From positions 1 through 25,261 of the IMG/VR virus record IMGVR_UViG_3300037504_000613: 25,261 bases of DNA, one strand, 5' to 3'. The position numbers and the translations under genes were made by a program. The notes under the pieces were generated by a model that saw only the letters and a list, made by a program, of their open reading frames with translations, did no database searches and was not told the origin of the DNA. Of the stretch, positions 641 through 23,400 are shown one piece after another. The stretch is from a virus. Each line of letters begins with the position of its first letter. Within the stretch, counting starts at the first letter, position 1.

Positions 641-666
641 TACTTTACCTCCAGTGATAACTTGGA

Positions 667-690
667 CTATCATTATGCTCACCGAGATTA
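667..690. promoter_or_regulatory. operator-like repeat O1
   Basis: A 24-bp sequence (CTATCATTATGCTCACCGAG then ATTA) recurs with a few mismatches at 725-748, in the same orientation and 58 bp away. This copy covers the expected start point of the leftward promoter. Two copies placed over the two divergent promoters are best read as binding sites for the neighbouring XRE repressor. Confidence 0.5.
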
Positions 691-718
691 GTATAACATA
701 TGTTGCAACCGTTGTCAA
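690..718 (-). promoter_or_regulatory. leftward early promoter
   Basis: On the minus strand TTGACA (718-713) is separated by exactly 17 nt from TATACT (695-690), a near-consensus sigma70-type promoter. It points at the two coupled leftward genes. The operator-like repeat O1 begins at the -10 box, so a bound repressor would block initiation. Confidence 0.7.
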
Positions 719-731
719 GTGTATCTATCAT
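703..731 (+). promoter_or_regulatory. rightward promoter of the repressor gene
   Basis: TTGCAA (703-708), a 17-nt spacer and TATCAT (726-731) point toward the XRE gene that starts at 769. It overlaps the leftward promoter face to face. The second operator-like repeat (725-748) covers its -10 and start point, which suggests autoregulation. Confidence 0.55.
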
Positions 732-748
732 TTTGCTCACCAAGACTA
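725..748. promoter_or_regulatory. operator-like repeat O2
   Basis: Second copy of the 24-bp sequence also present at 667-690 (shared core TGCTCACC, with flanking CTATCATT on the left). It lies upstream of the leftward -35 box and over the rightward -10/start, the arrangement expected of a dual-purpose repressor site. Confidence 0.5.
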
Positions 749-768
749 TAGAAATTAGGATTATAATT

Positions 769-1137
769 ATGCTAGATATGTCAAACATTGAATTTTCAGA
801 ATGGTTAACGGATAGAGTGGAAGAGCGCGGCTGGTCATTCAGGGAATTATCTCGCCGCGCTGATTTATCATCGGCTGTAATAAGCCAAGTGGTTACGAGG
901 AAGAGCTTTCCTGGTTTAGATTTCTGCTTAGGTATCTCGCGTGCCCTGGATATTCCACCCGAGCGTGTCTTCCGCAAGGCCGGATATTTACCAGCCCGCC
1001 CGCGCATCATCAGCGAACAGAAGGAAGAGCTCGACGACTACTACGAGGCGCTTGACCAGAGTGACCGCGACCGGCTCGTCGCCATCGCCAAAACGCTGCA
1101 CGAGCAGCAGGAAAGCTATGATGTCGGAGAAGATTGA
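769..1137 (+). CDS. XRE-family helix-turn-helix repressor
   Basis: A 122-residue protein with an N-terminal helix-turn-helix of the Cro/C1 (XRE) family at about residues 8-68: WSFRELSRRADLSSAVIS is the HTH core, followed by the IPPERVFRKAGY segment typical of phage repressors. The C-terminal 50 residues are helical. There is no S24/LexA-like autoprotease domain, so RecA-driven self-cleavage is not expected. The ATG at 769 was chosen over upstream in-frame starts because those would lie inside the promoter/operator region and because a weak TTAGGA ribosome site precedes it. It diverges from the leftward early genes and probably acts on the repeats at 667-690 and 725-748 to hold lysogeny. Confidence 0.8.
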   Translation: MLDMSNIEFSEWLTDRVEERGWSFRELSRRADLSSAVISQVVTRKSFPGLDFCLGISRALDIPPERVFRKAGYLPARPRIISEQKEELDDYYEALDQSDRDRLVAIAKTLHEQQESYDVGED

Positions 1138-1180
1138 GCTTTGTGAGCAGTGCGGGACAGAGCTGGACGAGCTGGAGTGA
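1121..1180 (+). CDS. possible 19-residue CxxC micro-protein
   Basis: A short frame starting inside the 3' end of the XRE gene (ATGATG at 1118-1123, preceded by AGGAAAG) encodes MSEKIELCEQCGTELDELE. The CEQCG pair looks like one half of a zinc ribbon. It is out of frame with the repressor and translationally coupled to it if expressed. It could equally be chance; the only support is the ribosome-site-like sequence, the overlap and the CxxC motif. Confidence 0.25.
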   Translation: MSEKIELCEQCGTELDELE

Positions 1181-1220
1181 CCCCCATCCTAACGGCTGCC
1201 ATTTTTGATGCTCTACCCGC

Positions 1221-1342
1221 GACCGTAAGGCGTCCTCCCTGCCCCATCCGTCCGCCCGCCGGTAAACCGCCATCGACGGCGGGCTGTTAACCGGTAGGCT
1301 GAAGGTTCAAATCCTTCCCGAGGAGCTTACGGTCTTACGGAC
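1221..1342. repeat. candidate integrase arm sites flanking the att core
   Basis: GACCGTAAG at 1221-1229 is the exact reverse complement of CTTACGGTC at 1326-1334, and a tandem near-copy TTACGGAC follows at 1335-1342. They bracket the tRNA-Asn-like segment. Short directly and inversely repeated words around a core are typical of tyrosine-integrase binding sites; the assignment is inference. Confidence 0.4.
1282..1326 (+). other. attP/att core: 3' half of a tRNA-Asn gene
   Basis: The sequence contains an anticodon loop CTGTTAA (anticodon GTT at 1286-1288), a perfect T-arm (GAAGG, TTCAAAT, CCTTC at 1301-1317) and an acceptor 3' strand CCGAGGA (1318-1324) with discriminator G. No matching acceptor 5' strand or D-arm is found upstream and CCA is absent, so it is not a functional tRNA gene. 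Partial tRNA 3' ends beside an integrase gene are the usual form of phage attP sites, which rebuild the host tRNA on insertion. Confidence 0.65.
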
Positions 1343-1449
1343 ACCGCCGCAAGCCATCCGTACCATCGCCGGTAGATTATCGTTGGCACGCTCGCTCACC
1401 CGCGACCTAACGATGTACCGAAAAGCGCCCTCTACACCCTCGCGGCGCT

Positions 1450-1467
1450 TTAGAACATACGTTCTAA
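1450..1467. promoter_or_regulatory. SOS (LexA)-box-like palindrome upstream of int
   Basis: TTAGAAC-ATAC-GTTCTAA has perfect 7-bp arms and contains GAACNNNNGTTC, the core of the LexA box of Gram-positive bacteria. It sits 20 bp before the integrase start codon, so LexA binding would repress int until DNA damage. The host's LexA motif is unknown here. Confidence 0.5.
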
Positions 1468-1486
1468 CCTACCGGAGGCCATACGG

Positions 1487-2491
1487 ATGAACACAGGCAT
1501 CACCTTCGAGCAGGCCGTCGAGGGCTATCTCCTCGACGCCCGCGCGCGGCAGCTATCGCCGCGCACCATCGGCGATTACATCAATTCGTTCAACCACTTC
1601 CGGCGCTGGCTCGACGGCGCGGATCCGCGCATCGCGGGAATCGACGCCGACGAGATTCGCCGCTTTCTGGATTGGCTGGGCAACTCTCGCGCACCCCACG
1701 GCGGCGCTGCGCCACGCCAGCCGGTCGAGCTCTCGCAGAAATCCATCCTCAATATCCACACCGCGCTCTCCGCACTGTGGACCTGGGCCACGGCCGAGGG
1801 CTACGCCGACGATCACATTGTGCGAGCCGTCAACGTCAAACGGCCCGATCCGCCCGCCATCGAGCCTTTCTCTCGCGACGACGTGCAGGCGCTCCTGGAG
1901 GCCTGCGATTACACCGACGAGTACGACCGCCCCGGCAAATCCCCTTGCCGCAACCGCCGCCCCACCGCCGCCCGCGACCGCGCGCTGATCCTCATCTTTC
2001 TTGATACCGGCGCACGCAACGGCGAGATCTGCTACAGCCCGCGCCTCGATAAGCCCGGCCTGCTCGTCGGCCAGGTCGACCGCCGCAACCTGAGCACCAA
2101 GGTGGTCGGGAAGGGCAGCAAGGAACGCGTACTGCGCATCTCCCACCGCACGATGAAGGCCGTGTGGGAATATCTCCTTGAGCGCGACGATGCGCGGCCC
2201 GACGATCACCTCTTTCTCTCCTCAAAAGGCCACAAGCGCCCGCTGACCACGGACGCTTGCTATCATCTCATACATCGCCTCGGCGAGCGCTGCGGCATCG
2301 AGGCCTACCCGCATCGCTTCCGGCATACCTTCGCTATTAACTTTTTAAGGAACGGTGGCAAGACCCTGGAGCTGCAGCAGTTCCTGGGCCACGCATCGCT
2401 GAAGATGGTCAAGCGCTACGTGGCTATCGCCCAGGTCGACCTGGACGAGGCCCACAAGCGCGCCTCGCCGGTCGCTAACTGGCGTCTGTAG
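1487..2491 (+). CDS. int: tyrosine site-specific recombinase (phage integrase)
   Basis: A 334-residue integrase. An N-terminal SAM-like core-binding domain (about residues 5-115) is followed by the catalytic domain with the full active-site set: R177 (TGARNGE), K209 or K212 (GKGSKER), H276 and R279 (HRFRH), H302 (GHAS) and the nucleophile Y311 (KRYV). It would cut and rejoin DNA at attP and at a tRNA-Asn attB. The ATG at 1487 follows GGAGG by 8 nt. It is the last rightward gene before the leftward late operon, and its 3' end overlaps that of the facing gene by 17 bp. An SOS-like box lies just upstream. Length and motifs are intact. Confidence 0.93.
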   Translation: MNTGITFEQAVEGYLLDARARQLSPRTIGDYINSFNHFRRWLDGADPRIAGIDADEIRRFLDWLGNSRAPHGGAAPRQPVELSQKSILNIHTALSALWTWATAEGYADDHIVRAVNVKRPDPPAIEPFSRDDVQALLEACDYTDEYDRPGKSPCRNRRPTAARDRALILIFLDTGARNGEICYSPRLDKPGLLVGQVDRRNLSTKVVGKGSKERVLRISHRTMKAVWEYLLERDDARPDDHLFLSSKGHKRPLTTDACYHLIHRLGERCGIEAYPHRFRHTFAINFLRNGGKTLELQQFLGHASLKMVKRYVAIAQVDLDEAHKRASPVANWRL

Positions 2492-2855
2492 TCTCGCCCT
2501 CTATGCCCGCCGCCGGATCCACGCCCAGCTTTTCGCACAGCGCCAACAACATCATATCGCCCATTGACCAATCCTCGCCCTTGTTTTTTTGGCGCACGTG
2601 GTCCTCCAGGACGCGCGCCACCAGGTGCGCGGCCTCGCGGTCGGCGATCTCGACCTCGAATTCGTGATCAGTATCACGCCACTGCACACCTCGCGAGGTC
2701 TGCTGGTACCCGACGAGATCCTTCTCCTCGTCTGTCAGCTCCAGCGCATCCAGTGCCCTCATTCCCTTGCGCACGGTCGCGAGGTTAGTCCCCTGCAACT
2801 GCGCGATCAATTGCTGCAATCGTTCTCTCTCCCACGTCGTCAACGTCCAGGTCAT
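2475..2855 (-). CDS. phage protein of unknown function, last gene of the late block
   Basis: A 126-residue acidic protein beginning MTWTLTTWERERLQQL. The N-terminal 60 residues look helical, a central stretch (QWRDTDHEFEVEIADREAAH) is beta/alpha, and the C-terminal part (WSMGDMMLLALCEKLG) is helical. No family recognised. AGGAGG lies 5 nt before the ATG at 2855. It is separated from the upstream gene by a strong hairpin (2892-2924), so it may be transcribed only by read-through or from its own start. It overlaps the 3' end of int tail to tail. Confidence 0.65.
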   Translation of the reverse strand: MTWTLTTWERERLQQLIAQLQGTNLATVRKGMRALDALELTDEEKDLVGYQQTSRGVQWRDTDHEFEVEIADREAAHLVARVLEDHVRQKNKGEDWSMGDMMLLALCEKLGVDPAAGIEGETTDAS

Positions 2856-3136: not shown

Positions 3137-6100
3137 AATCCGCGATTTTCAATTTCTTGCCATCGCCCCACATCACATACACGCTATTGTCCCCGCCCGC
3201 GGTCGCGATGTGGTACAAAAACACGCCATCCGACGGATCGCTCGGATGCGACGAGCCTACATCATCCAGGCGAACTTTATCCACATTTTTTATCACATTA
3301 CCATTAAGATCAATATCCCCCGACATCGCTCGGCCACCCGATGCCAAAAAATACTGCGAGTGATCGTCGTCGCCCTTGCCACTCAAAGCCCCGTGGTCAA
3401 TGGTGCCTCCGTCACCGCCATTGTGGTTGTGACTATTGCCATTAGTAACGTGGCTGCCGGAAAGACCCGAGTGCCAGGTATTGGCCCGCGAATCATTGTG
3501 GTACTGGCTGTGATCGTCGTCTCCCTTGCCACTCAAAGCCCCGTGATCAATGGTGCCTCCGTCACCGTCGCTGTGGTCGTGGGAGTCGCCGTTGGTGACG
3601 TGCGCCCCGGATAAATTCCCGTGCCAGGTGTTGGCACGGGAATCATTGTGGTACTGCGAGTGATCGTCGTCGCCCAGCCCGCCCAACCCGCCGTGATCCA
3701 CGCCATCGGCGTAGGCCTCGGTCGCCAAATTCCTCCACGCGCTGGCAGCCCGCAGCCGCATCTTGTCTGTGTCGGTGCGATAGAATATCATCCCGTCGCT
3801 GATGCTCGCCGTCGGATCACTGCTGCCAGTGCCGGGCCGGAATGGCACCGACTGTAGTCGCAAATAATCGTACGTGCATTGCATCACGTAGCGATTATTT
3901 CCCCCATCCTGGATGAAGAAATCAATCTGATTTAGGTGAAAACTGATATTGGACTGATTGTTGGCGTCGTGACGAATGCCGACGTTGAAGACACCATTTG
4001 TGCTCGCAGTCGGGTCCGTCTCCTGCAAATTCGCGAAGGCAAACATATCACCGTAGCTCGTCACGTCCTCGTTCACCCAGCGGATGTAGTTGCCTGAATC
4101 CCCGCTGCTCGTGATGGTCTGGCGCGTCGCATTCAATTTGATCGCCCCGGCGCCCGCGACGATAGCGCCATCAGAATCCACCTTGCATTGGATTGTCCCG
4201 CCCTTGGTGGCGCGAGTGGTGAAAGCCGCGTCAGTGCCGTAGATATTGATGCCATTAATAGCGTCAATCTCCACGCCGCTGTAGTCGTACCACTCCCCGT
4301 CCGCCACCAAATCCGAGGTAAGCTTGATGTGGCCCGAGCTTATCTCCGTGGACAGCACCATTGCATATGTCCCGTCGGACACATCCGTCAGCCAGTCGCT
4401 GCCCTGCGGATTATCCGCCGTCACATCCGCCCCGCTTGCCACATCCGATATATCCCCGCTCGTGATAGTATTCGTGAGCGTGATACTGCCCTTCATCTCC
4501 AATGTCCCCGCCGACTCATCCCATAGCAGGTAATTGTCGGCCTGGCGCCCGATCTGCACATCATTCTGATCCAGCGTGCCGCCATCCCAGGATAACCCAT
4601 CCTCAAGCGCCAGAGCAAACGCCGCGTTGCCTGAGCTGTTCCACGCCCGCCATCCGCTCACATCGATCTGCGTCCGCGCCCCGCTGGTCGCCGTCGCCAG
4701 CGAGAATTGCCCATCCAGGATGTAGATTCCCGGCGTGTCGAATGCGCCAGCGTCCGCCAGCGGGCGGTTGCTGTGGTACAGCGCCGCCACCTGCTCGGCG
4801 GTGAGAATGGAGTCAAAAACGGCAAGCTGCGCCACGGCGATGTTACTGTAAAGTGTCGATATATATGCCCGGCCACAATCAAATGAGGATAGAGTTGGGG
4901 CGATTCTACTGGTTGCATCACTATCCTCTATCGCCCCCTGAATATACATCTTCCACGCATTACCAGAGAAATCGAGCGTAATATCGATTTGAATCCAATC
5001 CCCAGCCTCGAAAGATTGCTCCGCAGAAATCAGCAGTCTATTCCCGTTAATATGCCCCTCGAATTTATTGGCGCTGCTATCATAAATTAGAATCAAACGA
5101 TTACTGGAATCACCACCACGGATATCGTAGATGTAGTTGTGTCCTGATTGGGGCCATGCTCCATCTGCATCATAGGCCACCTGGAACATCACGTGGATTG
5201 TGAGTGCGTTATTATCGGATATTACTCCAACGAGGTCGTCCATGGTAAACGCAGTGTCGGTGCGCGAACTACTACTGTTATGCCCCGCACCACTCCACGA
5301 GCACCATGTTAAATCACCATAGCACACGCTAGATAGCGCATTCGACACCTCCATTTGCACACCATCAAACCATACATCATCTCCGGAGTCTATCGTATAT
5401 AATCTGATTTGAATATCTACTGCGCCCCCCGTATTGTTCGTCCACGCCGCGCTCCCACGCCGCCATCTATCACTATCAGAAAATGAGAAACTTCCCCGAT
5501 ATACATTATTGGTCGTGTCTCGTATAAAGACCATACCATTCGCGCCGCGATAGTATGCAGATACTGTCACAGCTTCGCCGTTCGCCAGCGAAAACTCATT
5601 AGAACGATGTGTTGCTGTTCCCGTCAGTTTACAGGAAGCAGATCCGAATACTGCATAATTCGTGTCGCGAGCAGCGCTGCCTCCTACTGTCGCCCACCCA
5701 TCCGTTACGTTGTTTTCAAACACAGGATTATTTATTTCATTCGTTGTGGCCCCTTCCACCACCACAGCCCGACTCCCCGCCCACGGCCCCGCCACGGTGT
5801 GGAACGCCCCGCTGATCGTCGCCTCCTGCCCGCGCAGGCTCGTCCAGCTCGTCTCCGTGATCGGGCAGTTCGGGCCGAGGAGCAGCAGGCCATCGGCCTC
5901 GCTGAAAATCCCCGCATCCCCCAGATCGATCTGATTCGCCTTGATCTTGTCGATCTCCCCCGCCGCGTTCCACGTGATCGGCTCGTACGAGCTACTGCCG
6001 ATCTGCCCCGACCCATCCACGTCGAATTGTGCCGTGAGCACGTCGCTGGCGTTGAACACGCGGATGCCATCCGTACTATCCTGCACCACCCGCGCGCCGC

Positions 6101-11113: not shown

Positions 11114-11180
11114 CCGCTACTCCTCAAAGAAAACTGTTTACTCCAGTTACCAAATTGGTTCCCACAGTCAAAGCCTGATG

Positions 11181-11189
11181 TGGTATAAT
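11181..11189 (+). promoter_or_regulatory. extended -10 promoter of the rightward 82-residue gene
   Basis: TGGTATAAT is an exact TGnTATAAT extended -10 element; no good -35 is seen at 17 nt. The start point would be near 11196, immediately before the first arm of the long inverted repeat at 11199. It is the only clear promoter inside the late block and faces against it. Confidence 0.55.
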
Positions 11190-11195
11190 TTCGAT

Positions 11196-11353
11196 ACTGA
11201 GATACCAACTCATCGGCAGGGGCGTTTTTGCGTTTCTGGTACAATCGCATACAATTCACCTGTGAGCCCGTGGTGGAATGCGCCCCGTCGAGTTGGTATC
11301 TCCCGGAAGCGCGAAAGCCGCGGGCTCGCGCCATCGAGTAAAGGAGATACCAA
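11196..11353 (+). promoter_or_regulatory. structured leader RNA with two exclusive pairings (riboswitch-like)
   Basis: GAGATACCAACTC (11199-11211) is the perfect complement of GAGTTGGTATCTC (11290-11302). The same central segment (11293-11303) is perfectly complementary over 11 bases to GGAGATACCAA (11343-11353), which contains the ribosome binding site and ends at the GTG start. The first pairing encloses an inner stem (GGGGCG 11219-11224 with CGCCCC 11281-11286) and two small hairpins (about 11229-11249 and 11254-11279). The second encloses a strong GC hairpin (11309-11331, GCGCGA...TCGCGC). This has the logic of a translational on/off switch. It matches no riboswitch class I can recognise. 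Confidence 0.55.
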
Positions 11354-11602
11354 GTGAAGACCCGTAGCATCGATCCGAGCCTCGTCACCGTCGAGCTCAC
11401 TGCTCACGAGTGCGACCTCATCGCCCGCGCCCTCTACACCTACACCGACCGCGCGGTCGAAACTGAAGCTCAACTGAGCCAGATCCAATCCCTCTCCGAT
11501 TCCTTCGAGCTCGCCTCCATCCTCGCCACCGCCCTCTCCTACCTGCCGCCGGATACCATCGAGCACCTCCGCGAAGAGATGAAGGTCTCCATCCTCGCCT
11601 AA
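11354..11602 (+). CDS. small protein of unknown function, lone rightward gene in the late block
   Basis: An 82-residue protein with a GTG start at 11354, preceded by AAGGAG at 7 nt. The sequence (LTAHECDLIARALYTYTDRA, then a helical region ending LPPDTIEHLREEM) looks like a soluble helical protein. Strong use of C-ending codons supports coding, as in neighbouring genes. No family recognised. It is the only gene between 2475 and 25070 on the plus strand, has its own promoter and a folded leader, and is followed by a hairpin, so it behaves like an independently expressed 'moron' active in the lysogen or under a specific signal. An antisense effect on the tape-measure transcript is also possible. 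Confidence 0.65.
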   Translation: MKTRSIDPSLVTVELTAHECDLIARALYTYTDRAVETEAQLSQIQSLSDSFELASILATALSYLPPDTIEHLREEMKVSILA

Positions 11603-11610
11603 CCCCACCG

Positions 11611-11656
11611 CCTGGTCATCCTTCGCTTGCACTAGCAAAGCCGAGGGGTGACCAGG
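11611..11656. terminator. hairpin following the rightward gene
   Basis: CCTGGTCA (11611-11618) pairs with TGACCAGG (11649-11656), with an imperfect inner stem (TTGC/GCAA). It starts 9 nt after the TAA. No T-run follows, so it may be a weak terminator or a member of the dispersed CATCCTTCG-type palindromes also seen at 12303, 12352 and 19390. Confidence 0.4.
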
Positions 11657-11657
11657 C

Positions 11658-11685: not shown

Positions 11686-12259
11686 CATCCTCGTCCGTGC
11701 CTCTCGCGCCTTCCGCCGCTCCCGCTGCACGATGGACCGCTTCTGCAAATACGCCTTGATGTCGCGCACCACCCAGGCTGGCGTGCGCATTAGCTCCTCC
11801 CACGTCCAGCCCAGCTCCAGGCACACCACGATGTCCGGGTCCAGCGGCAGCGCGCTATTCCTTCGTAGCGCCGTCTCCAGATCGACCTCGAAAGGATTCC
11901 TGCTCGTCCTCCGTCCGCTGGCGGCGCGGGTTCAAGTCGTTGATCGCCGAGAGGATGAAGTCCGCGTCTTGCTCCGTCAATTGCTCGATGGCCTGGCGCG
12001 TCACCCGGATCGGCTCGCCCTCCTCGTCCGTCCAGGCCACAATACCCCGCTCCAGAATCGCCAGATTCATCCGGTCGATCTGGAAGTCGGCCACTGCGTC
12101 CTCCTCGGACGCGCCCGGTTTCATCCCCATCGCCACCGTCTGCCCGGCCAGCCACTGCCGGTCGCCGTAGGCGAATTTCTTGATCGTGCAGGTCTCTTTT
12201 TCGCCCCACCAGGGCGCTTGTATCGTCTTCCTCTGCGAATCATCCACAAACCTTGGCAT
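11680..12259 (-). CDS. tail assembly chaperone, frameshifted long form (gpGT-like)
   Basis: The short-form frame can shift +1 at TTT-C (11893-11890: UUU to UUC, with CGA next in the zero frame), giving 123 + 69 = 192 residues. The extension reads EVDLETALRR..., with GWTWEELMRTPAWVVRDIK and a basic tail QRERRKAREART, a pattern typical of the second part of tail chaperones. It has no plausible start of its own before its conserved part, and the two frames overlap for about 75 nt (T-frame TGA near 11932, zero-frame TAG at 11855). Location between tail tube and tape measure is exactly where lambda G/GT-type pairs sit. A -2 shift gives the same frame; an assembly indel is the main alternative. Confidence 0.7.
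11855..12259 (-). CDS. tail assembly chaperone, short form (gpG-like)
   Basis: A 134-residue protein starting MPRFVDDSQRKTIQAP, with KKFAYGDRQWLAGQTV and VTRQAIEQLTEQDADFILSA, typical of phage tail assembly chaperones that coat the tape measure during tail assembly and are not kept in the virion. GGGGAG precedes the ATG at 12259. The last 11 residues (after Phe123) are replaced in the frameshifted long form. It follows the tail tube gene, as in most siphoviruses. Confidence 0.75.
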   Translation of the reverse strand: MPRFVDDSQRKTIQAPWWGEKETCTIKKFAYGDRQWLAGQTVAMGMKPGASEEDAVADFQIDRMNLAILERGIVAWTDEEGEPIRVTRQAIEQLTEQDADFILSAINDLNPRRQRTEDEQESFRGRSGDGATKE

Positions 12260-12302
12260 AATCTCCCCTTTCCGCTCTCTACGTGCCTCTCAGAGAATCT
12301 AC

Positions 12303-12386
12303 TAGCCATCCTGAGCCTGTCGAAGGATGGCCCTACTCCCTACTTCCTACCTAGCCATCCTGAGCCTGTCGAAGGATGGCCCTACT
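12303..12386. repeat. two copies of a CCATCCT...AGGATGG palindrome with heptamers
   Basis: The 34-bp sequence TAGCCATCCTGAGCCTGTCG... with inverted ends CCATCCT/AGGATGG occurs at 12303-12336 and again at 12352-12385, separated by TACTCCC/TTCCTAC heptamers. It fills the gap between the tail tube and chaperone genes. Close relatives lie at 19390-19423 and 20669-20695. The same kind of palindrome is common in bacterial chromosomes. Confidence 0.85.
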
Positions 12387-21167: not shown

Positions 21168-23167
21168 TGCACTTCACTCAATTTCTTGCCCAGGTATTTC
21201 TTCTTCTCCGCACCCACGATCATCTTGTGCAACTCACCGCACCCGTTCACCCGGCCCCACGGCGTCGAAAGCGGGCGTTTACAGACCCGCTCGTCTCGGG
21301 CCGTGTACCACACGATCACCCAGTCTCCATTGTCCAGGAGCATCGGGTGCGTGGAACACCGACAGCGCGGGTGTGCGGGCGCCTTGTAGCGCGTCCTCGG
21401 CAGCCCGATCCGCTGGCGCGTGATGTCATTCGCCTCGTCAAATGCGCGCGTGACCTCCGTGCTGGCGATCAACTCCGCTCGCCGCGGCCCGAACACCGGC
21501 GCCAGCGTCCGCGTCAACTCATCCAACTCCGCGCCCGTCTCGATCCACGAGGCCACCGCCTCCCGGACCGCGTTGCGCGTCGTCATCGTCACGTTACTGA
21601 TCAACTCGCCCGCGTACTGCCGCGCCCAGGCTGCCGCTTCCTCATTCACCCCGGCCCAATCGACCCCGCCGCCGACTTCCTCCTCCACGTCGTCCGTCGC
21701 CATCGAGATCAGGCGCTGCACAGCCTGCACCAGCCGCCCCAGGAACTCCTTCCGCAGCCGCGCGCTCTCCTCCTGCCAGAACGCGTCGTCGTCCGCCACG
21801 TCCCGGTCCCGCTCCACCGCCTCAACCACGCGCTCCTGCTGCTCGTCCAGGAACTGGCGTAAATCGTCGCCTAACTCATTCTCAATCCGCGCCCGCTGCT
21901 TCCGCCGCCCCTGCTCCGCAAACTCCGCCAGCCCCTCCTCATCCTCATCCTCCACGCTCTCCTGCTCGCCTACTCCATACTCCCTACTCCCTACTCCCGC
22001 CGTTGGCATTCCGGTTCTTTTCCTGATCCAATTCTCATCCTCCGGCGTCCACGTCAGCAAGTCGCCCACCTGCTGCAGCCAGTTGCCCAATTGCCCCAGC
22101 GCGGGTTTTTCTACTTTCGTATGCGTCAGCCGCGCCCGGCCCTTGATCTGCGGGTTATACGCCAGCAGCCTCGGCACTGCGAAGCGGTTGACCACGCTCG
22201 CCAGCCGGTCCAGCGTCCCGTCCGTGGCCATCAAAAACAACTGGCTCTTATCGCTCCCCAATGCCCACGAGCCCGTCTGGCCCGTGCCCAGGTTGATAAA
22301 ATCGGCCAGCATCGTCTGCAACATCAGCAGGCGATAGTACCGGATCGTATTCAGCAGCGCCTCGGCGTTGGTGTTGCTCACGCTGGTCAAAGAGAAATTC
22401 ACGCCGCTCGGCACGCTCACGTATTGTTTCGCGTCCACCGAGAGCGCCTGGCCCACGCTCTCGACCTGGCTCTGATCCTCGCTGCTCGGCTTCTCCTCGA
22501 ACTCGAAAGTCGGCAGCCCCACGAACGACCGCTGCCAGCCGATACCGTTGATGATCTGCAGATTTTTCAAGTAATACCAGGTCTCATAGAGCGATTCCAG
22601 CAGCGCCAGCCCCTCCGGATTCCCCCCGTCCCGCTGGAACGTGAAATGGAGGCTCTTCTGGATCGGGATCGTGATCTCCTCGTAGTCCGGCGCCGGGCGC
22701 TGCACCAGCGCCTGGAGCCCGCCGGTCTCGTCGAACTGCCACTTGTGGAAGGAACTCTGCCGGCGCACGGCCCACTTCCGCCAGCCGATATAACCCTCGC
22801 GCTCCTCGCGCCGCTTGTAGCAGATCTCCAGCCAGGACCAGCCGAACATCACGCACGTCAGCGCGTCCTCGATGGCGTCGGCGGGCGTATGGCTCATATC
22901 GTGCAGACAATCGTCCAGAAAATCCGCCGCCGCCCGGTCCTCCGCGCTCTCACTCTCCGGCTCGAAGTACCACTGGGCGGTGCGAGAAAGCATCACCAGC
23001 GCGTTCCACATCGTTCGGATCGTCGGATCGCGCCTGCGCATCTCATCATACACATCATACGCTGCGGGCCACTCCAATTTTGATGTATAAGACTCGGAGA
23101 CCTGCCCCGCAAACTCCAGCAGCCCCGTCCTTCCGACCTCATTCATCGTCAGCGGTATCCGTACCAT
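21164..23167 (-). CDS. portal protein fused to a MuF-type head morphogenesis domain
   Basis: A 667-residue protein. Residues 1-370 match Mu gp29/DUF935-type portals (DEMRRRDPTIRTMWNALVML, WSWLEICYKRRE, NINGIGWQRSFVG-like segment, MLADFINLGTGQTGSWALGS). Residues about 490-665 match the Mu gpF (gp30) family: AELIASTEVTRAFDEAND, HPRCRC at about 598-603, then WYTARDERVC and TPWGRVNGC. The portal forms the ring for DNA passage; MuF proteins join it in the prohead. A heptamer array (21971-21998) encodes the linker AGVGSREYGVGE near residue 390-400, where the two parts are tied. GGAGG precedes the ATG at 23167. The MuF motif order appears permuted. Confidence 0.85.
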   Translation of the reverse strand: MVRIPLTMNEVGRTGLLEFAGQVSESYTSKLEWPAAYDVYDEMRRRDPTIRTMWNALVMLSRTAQWYFEPESESAEDRAAADFLDDCLHDMSHTPADAIEDALTCVMFGWSWLEICYKRREEREGYIGWRKWAVRRQSSFHKWQFDETGGLQALVQRPAPDYEEITIPIQKSLHFTFQRDGGNPEGLALLESLYETWYYLKNLQIINGIGWQRSFVGLPTFEFEEKPSSEDQSQVESVGQALSVDAKQYVSVPSGVNFSLTSVSNTNAEALLNTIRYYRLLMLQTMLADFINLGTGQTGSWALGSDKSQLFLMATDGTLDRLASVVNRFAVPRLLAYNPQIKGRARLTHTKVEKPALGQLGNWLQQVGDLLTWTPEDENWIRKRTGMPTAGVGSREYGVGEQESVEDEDEEGLAEFAEQGRRKQRARIENELGDDLRQFLDEQQERVVEAVERDRDVADDDAFWQEESARLRKEFLGRLVQAVQRLISMATDDVEEEVGGGVDWAGVNEEAAAWARQYAGELISNVTMTTRNAVREAVASWIETGAELDELTRTLAPVFGPRRAELIASTEVTRAFDEANDITRQRIGLPRTRYKAPAHPRCRCSTHPMLLDNGDWVIVWYTARDERVCKRPLSTPWGRVNGCGELHKMIVGAEKKKYLGKKLSEVQ
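21971..21998. repeat. TACTCCC heptamer array inside the portal coding region
   Basis: Four TACTCCC/TACTCCA heptamers lie in frame and encode GVGSREYGVG in the acidic linker of the portal-MuF protein. Seven is not a multiple of three, so the copies use different frames (GVGS, REYG), showing a nucleotide-level insertion tolerated in a loop. Confidence 0.85.
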
Positions 23168-23400
23168 TATTCATCCTCCGGCAACCAGACTTGCGTGTTG
23201 TACGGCCTATCGCCTACAAATTCGACCACGTGACCGCAACCCTCGCTGCCATCCGCCCGCTCTTTAAGCGTGTACGTGCGTCCATTCCGATGTGTGATCG
23301 CGTACTTAAAAGGCCCGTTGCCCCCAGACCAGCAAATCATCACCCGTGAGCGATGGGGCAAATTGTCAACCTCTTCTTGAGTCAGCAATGTCCGTGCCAT
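23167..23400 (-). CDS. small phage protein of unknown function between terminase and portal
   Basis: A 77-residue, beta-rich protein beginning MARTLLTQEEVDNLPHRSRV, with WSGGNGPFKYAITHRNGRTYTL typical of a small barrel. No family recognised. Its ribosome site AGGAGTAGGG comes from the adjacent heptamer array. Its stop overlaps the portal start (TAATG). Small joining or accessory proteins between terminase and portal are common. Confidence 0.65.
   Translation of the reverse strand: MARTLLTQEEVDNLPHRSRVMICWSGGNGPFKYAITHRNGRTYTLKERADGSEGCGHVVEFVGDRPYNTQVWLPEDE

Follow-up and report, generated by a model that had tools for sequence, protein, structure and literature searches.

The window analysed here is a stretch of 25,261 nucleotides, a 25-kb fragment from an IMG/VR virus record. 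Judged from its gene content the phage is temperate, since an integrase (1487-2491) and an HTH repressor (700-1137) are present; its other genes include a Mu-like portal, a Mu-like major head protein, a tape measure and a terminase. A LexA-type box (GAACATACGTTC, 1453-1464), which is also present in L080 and L081, lies 23 nt 5' of the integrase start (1487) and suggests a damage-responsive expression of the integrase. The terminase gave no match when used as query against the genome contigs. In the relative L004 the terminase (3264-5957, minus strand) carries an insertion of ~340 aa that has LAGLIDADG/homing-endonuclease matches and whose end, HN-S, resembles that of an intein, and the portal protein (649-2826, minus strand) contains tandem STGSPQV repeats, both of which are missing from the window copies. 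Between portal and terminase, the interval that holds a cassette in L003 and L004 is filled in the window by a 77-aa ORF of no family (23167-23400, minus strand).

The subject of this analysis is a rightward ORF (11354-11602), which, together with its leader, is flanked by the start of the tape-measure gene (11113) on one side and the downstream end of the following late gene on the other. The initial annotation had regarded it as the only rightward gene of the late operon. The orientation is as described, but the gene is not a simple member of that operon, as it belongs to a cassette that is found at varied sites and in both orientations relative to the neighboring genes. Indeed, the cassette of L086 occupies the same gene interval as in the window in the opposite orientation, and the related phage L018 has no cassette between the same genes. 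Close by, a frame on the minus strand (11690-11860) overlaps and follows the gene at 11855-12259, resembles a small ORF at the equivalent place of L018 and looks like a tail-chaperone frameshift product. A dispersed repeat, CATCCTGAGCCTGTCGAAGGATGG, which we take to be common in Chloroflexota genomes, is located at ~12300-12380.

The cassette consists of an operator-like palindrome, a promoter, the leader, an acidic ORF of 61-82 aa and a hairpin, in this order. In the window its elements, including the paired strands of the leader, are the following:

11149-11159, strand not assigned: palindrome ACCAAATTGGT, likely operator, centered 30 nt upstream of the -10
11181-11189, plus strand: extended -10 TGGTATAAT (TG-G-TATAAT), predicted transcript start ~11196
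11199-11211, plus strand: arm 1, GAGATACCAACTC, the 5'-terminal strand, which copies the ribosome binding site (GAGATACCAA) and adds CTC
11219-11224, plus strand: 5' strand of the inner stem, GGGGCG, pairs with 11281-11286
11224-11239, plus strand: strand x of the tentative helix X, pairs with 11303-11318
11261-11274, plus strand: strand a of helix A, an unbroken run of 14 pairs with 11317-11330 (distant relatives have 16-20)
11281-11286, plus strand: 3' strand of the inner stem, CGCCCC
11290-11302(03), plus strand: arm 2, GAGTTGGTATCTC(C), the contested strand
11303-11318, plus strand: strand x' of the tentative helix X, pairs with 11224-11239
11317-11330, plus strand: strand b of helix A, pairs with 11261-11274
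11343-11353, plus strand: arm 3, GGAGATACCAA, the ribosome binding site GGAG and spacer, abutting the GTG at 11354
11354-11602, plus strand: ORF of 82 aa, acidic, predicted all-helical, GTG start, without known family
11610-11657, plus strand: closing hairpin, strong and terminator-like, here without a T run

The extended -10 was not reported by a simple promoter scan, which requires a -35 box; in most relatives the element is kept as TGGTATAMT or TGATATACT, 6-8 nt 5' of arm 1. Each of the seven cassette types has a hairpin past its ORF. For the 82-aa protein no credible relative was found in the genome contigs, annotated phages or plasmids, nothing informative in Pfam, PHROGs, NCBIfam, PADLOC or the sequences of solved structures, and no match at E 0.001 in a fold search with a model of pLDDT 81. 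Six of the seven cassette proteins align with each other, the window protein sharing 24-31% identity with those of the distant lineages, while the L086 protein shows no clear alignment with the others. The proteins are acidic, belong to no known family and are predicted to be helical, as modelled for the window protein.

The central feature of the leader is that 11290-11303 can pair either with 11199-11211 (13 bp) or with 11343-11353 (11 bp), as the initial annotation had stated and as both direct reading and a repeat search, which recovered the arms as two inverted repeats and one direct repeat, bear out. More precisely, 11290-11302 pairs with arm 1, and 11293-11303 (TTGGTATCTCC, an anti-Shine-Dalgarno sequence) pairs with arm 3. 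Since arm 2 is common to both helices, arm1:arm2 and arm2:arm3 are mutually exclusive, and the inner 6-bp stem of the first fold is likewise present as proposed. The 5' domain has a folding z-score of -4.3, with none of 200 shuffles equally stable, and the whole leader one of -2.0. In every copy of the cassette arm 3 spans the Shine-Dalgarno sequence and the spacer and ends at the start codon or 1-2 bases short of it; by comparison, 38 unrelated matches with the same spacing of promoter and ribosome binding site all lack the arms.

In addition, the lists of strongest stems repeatedly contain, besides arm1:arm2, the inner stem and arm2:arm3, the long helix A, which had escaped the first reading and crosses both arm pairings in a pseudoknot topology, and the tentative helix X. 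In the window lineage arm 2 is separated from strand b by ~14 nt, and strand b from arm 3 by ~12 nt; given these spacings, a pseudoknot of helix A with either arm pairing looks sterically feasible. The GC-rich hairpin that had been placed within the second fold (11309-11314/11329-11334) is only weakly kept and is broken in L004, whereas the longer helix A at this place is strongly conserved. Helix X was considered as a core part but is regarded as tentative: its contiguous pairs number 16 in the window, 10 in L060 and 12 in L013 and it is weak in L086, only three positions changed on both sides, and shuffled partners often did equally well.

Six further distinct copies of the leader are found in IMG/VR phages (L003, L004, L013, L060, which is the same as L066, L077 and L086), and the leader of L002 is nearly identical to that of the window, so that there are eight leaders of seven types. 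A protein scan yielded three copies, of which L002 and L004 share one contig, at sites adjoining the tape measure and between portal and terminase, respectively, and L003 is on a separate contig. The distant copy L013 came from a de novo search for X...rc(X)...X upstream of a start codon, L060 and the identical region of L066 from a pattern scan, and the second cassettes of the same phages, L077 (in the L060/L066 phage) and L086 (in the L013 phage), from a search of the contigs. Three lineages (G001, G006 and G011/G012) carry two cassettes each, whose arms differ (L002/L004, L013/L086 and L060/L077), and the window and G002, both 25-kb fragments, have one each. No convincing cassette was seen in the related contigs G003, G004 (20.0 of 21.4 kb read), G005 and G007-G010, nor was any found by searching annotated phages and plasmids with the leader DNA. 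The family is probably larger than seven types, since the pattern scans favor close relatives and L086 would have escaped them.

The alignment of the window with L003 and L004 shows how the arms evolve: GAGATACCAA of arm 1 is replaced by GAGCAACCAA in L003 or GAGCTAGCAA in L004, arms 2 and 3 are altered to match, and the remainder of the leader is almost unchanged. Over all eight leaders both pairings are maintained by compensatory changes, with 104 of 104 (arm1:arm2) and 87 of 88 (arm2:arm3) cells paired, and helix A is paired in 111 of 112; the arms were put in register by hand, so that percentages of this kind lean towards structure. Double-sided changes occurred at 11 of 13 positions of arm1:arm2 and 7 of 11 of arm2:arm3, and 21 of the 27 pairs of arm1:arm2 and helix A together have changed on both sides. 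The covariation score, calculated on ungapped helix blocks, is 0.79 for arm1:arm2 plus helix A (0.30 for shuffles) and 0.79 for arm2:arm3 (0.20 for shuffles), values that 0 of 500 shuffles reach in either case, and it drops to at most 0.16 when the partners are slid out of register. Swapping strands between cassettes breaks the pairings, leaving on average 8.0 of 13 pairs for arm1:arm2 and 7.1 of 11 for arm2:arm3. Even the closest relatives, with three distinct arm sets, contain three double-sided changes in each alternative helix, which was matched by 1 and 0 of 200,000 simulations for the two helices. Because all three strands have changed together, letter by letter, in related phages, the arm pairings are real; on this comparative evidence it is established that both pairings exist, that they exclude each other and that helix A crosses them, and the earlier observation is correct and stronger than first stated.

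Arms that change in concert could also be repeats at the level of the DNA with no role in the RNA, either operators or sequences whose identity is kept by quasipalindrome template switching. Such an explanation would account for arm1:arm2 being strictly Watson-Crick, with no G-U pair in 104 cells, and for the three arm changes within the close group of the window being transversions that were made in all three arms. However, it is improbable, as helix A covaries and uses G-U pairs, arm 3 never leaves the register of the ribosome binding site, arm 1 is located directly past the -10, and seven different sites would require seven regulators. Template switching between the repeats could nevertheless be part of the reason why the arms are strictly Watson-Crick.

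The leader is thus bistable in the sense that two exclusive helices share one strand and one of them covers the ribosome binding site. In nested folding, the two states of the window group differ by ~0-5 kcal/mol, with arm1:arm2 favored in the full-length RNA, whereas the in silico removal of arm 1 shifts the window lineage to the occluded fold (P 0.84-0.97). When the nascent chain is folded, arm1:arm2 forms first in the window, L003, L004, L077 and L013. For L060 and L086 the nested prediction is dominated by helix A and contains neither arm pairing, pseudoknots being beyond what ViennaRNA can score.

We consider it likely that the leader of this self-contained phage cassette acts in cis as an RNA switch, with arm 2 as the anti-ribosome-binding-site strand. 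In the on state arm 2 would be held by the 5' mimic, arm 1, leaving the real ribosome binding site free, and in the off state arm 2 would pair with arm 3 and block it, so that the state of the fold would set translation. Helix A probably keeps arm 2 between its two partners. Since arm1:arm2 is predicted to be favored at full length and to form first in the nascent chain, and since removal of arm 1 leads to occlusion, a fresh full-length transcript, in which arms 1 and 2 are transcribed first, would be on by default and would turn off if arm 1 were lost or occupied.

The initial annotation had recognized the architecture of a translational riboswitch or thermosensor. Exclusive folds over the ribosome binding site are borne out, but neither of the two sensor types is. 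Base pairing can occlude the ribosome binding site of the leader, as it would in a thermosensor, but the predicted energy gap between the two folds (~0-5 kcal/mol) stays nearly constant from 25 to 65 C, and because it hardly depends on temperature this reading is very improbable indeed. A riboswitch for a metabolite or protein, with arm1:arm2 as its P1, would operate on the same kind of on/off platform. In translational on-riboswitches, e.g. the adenine (add) riboswitch, the 3' strand of P1 is the anti-ribosome-binding-site strand, a double function that arm 2 shares, and within the close group of the window the interior of the leader is nearly invariant. Unlike the add class, however, the leader has no conserved aptamer core, and a second long helix crosses P1. 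With 13-14 bp plus the inner stem, arm1:arm2 is also long for a P1 under ligand control, so that a ligand-sensing riboswitch has little probability. For a metabolite riboswitch in particular, few unpaired positions are invariant over the seven leader types, and L013 and L086 have a rebuilt interior; a variable interior between conserved helices is the reverse of an aptamer.

An Rfam search of the window leader (E up to 10) gave no match at the gathering threshold, in line with the earlier statement that no known RNA class was recognizable, and L060, L077 and L059 likewise matched no family at this threshold (C4 antisense, IsrK, riboswitches and thermosensors included). In seven leader types one strand is contested by two partners and covaries with both, and a crossing helix covaries as well; the leader apparently represents an undescribed family of structured phage RNA switches.

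A simple cis switch leaves one observation unexplained, namely the fast change of arms that are under a triple constraint. Between the window and L003 the arm 7-mers differ at 7 of 21 positions and the rest of the leader at 2 of 135, and between L060 and L077 at 14 of 19 and 22 of 136, respectively (Fisher p 2e-3 to 7e-7, or 3e-3 to 0.05 with a single count for all three arms). By these counts the leader changes fastest in its arms. Code selection would be one explanation, concerted template switching among the repeats another. It is conceivable, though unlikely, that the leader is processed or terminated to a small RNA whose arm 2 acts in trans on transcripts of the same code, the arms forming an immunity-like code. 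This would fit the order target - antisense - target, as in P4 (PMC4825925), the concentration of differences in the arm 7-mers, and the different arms that two cassettes on one contig always carry. On the other hand, neither a processing site nor an internal terminator was found in the leader, arm 2 is buried within arm1:arm2, Rfam returns neither C4 nor IsrK, and differing codes within one genome may be drift. Somewhat more doubtful still is that the arms are an RNA recognition code by which leaders, in cis as well as in trans, recognize only leaders of their own code. If so, a resident prophage could silence or time an incoming or sibling copy of the same code, and selection for different codes would keep co-resident cassettes orthogonal. 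In any case the most constrained element is also the one that changes fastest, which sets drift aided by template switching against selection for code specificity, and compact cassettes with different codes within one genome would be a natural source of orthogonal translational switches.

Upstream of the leader, the operator slot of the window, L003 and L004 contains ACCNAAYTGGT, and that of L060, L077 and L086 an exact GAACN4GTTC, from which the box of L013 deviates by one mismatch; in these four the boxes are centered 30.5-32.5 nt upstream of the -10. GAACN4GTTC is the SOS box of the B. subtilis type (PMC4234289). As four of the seven types carry a LexA-type box, the cassette plausibly contains a tightly held, damage-induced prophage gene, for example a small antirepressor. 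A further GAACN4GTTC box (L087 4472-4483, ~L013 6335) is located ~120 nt past the stop codon of the L013 cassette, beside a TATACTATACC-like sequence. The antirepressors of Gifsy prophages are small, LexA-controlled and encoded outside the immunity region (PMC3121763). The promoter logic alone is shared with these, whereas the cassette proteins have no sequence match to a known family and the operator of the window cassette differs.

LexA-type boxes at four of seven promoters would also suit a type I toxin-antitoxin-like mRNA with metastable folds. The mRNAs of hok, aapA and timP have metastable or exclusive folds around the ribosome binding site, as described in PMC6733600 and PMC11228461; coupled covariation is found in the hok family (referenced in PMC6733600) and a pseudoknot in timP (PMC11228461), both as in the present leader. 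By contrast, the cassette proteins are acidic and not membrane-spanning, with a mean hydropathy of -0.1 to 0.1 in six of seven and a best 19-residue value of 0.6-1.5, and are not small hydrophobic toxins, and even close relatives have hypervariable arms. A simple consensus promoter scan revealed no antisense gene. A hok-like covarying 3' partner of arm 1 was absent from a range of 400 bases before to 500 after the start. Such a system is, if anything, a little less probable than a ligand-sensing riboswitch or DNA-level repeats.

Closer parallels come from phage RNAs. The targets with which the CI RNA of P4 pairs, seqA and seqC, flank it on the upstream and downstream side, respectively (PMC4825925), and the present leader, too, has a middle segment that is complementary to one target on either side within a single phage transcript. 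Rfam gives no C4 or IsrK match, however; moreover, unlike in P4, it is the next gene's ribosome binding site that serves as downstream target, and arms 1 and 2 form a long helix, which a second long helix crosses. The isrK-orf45-anrP leader of Gifsy-1 has alternative folds of -85.66 and -84.21 kcal/mol (PMC4825925), and is thus similarly a prophage leader with two near-isoenergetic folds, where translation of a small downstream ORF is controlled. There, however, a short leader RNA activates in trans, and its partners and sequences are unrelated to those of the cassette, for which no Rfam match was obtained. The P4 CI RNA and IsrK are the nearest working analogues of the leader.
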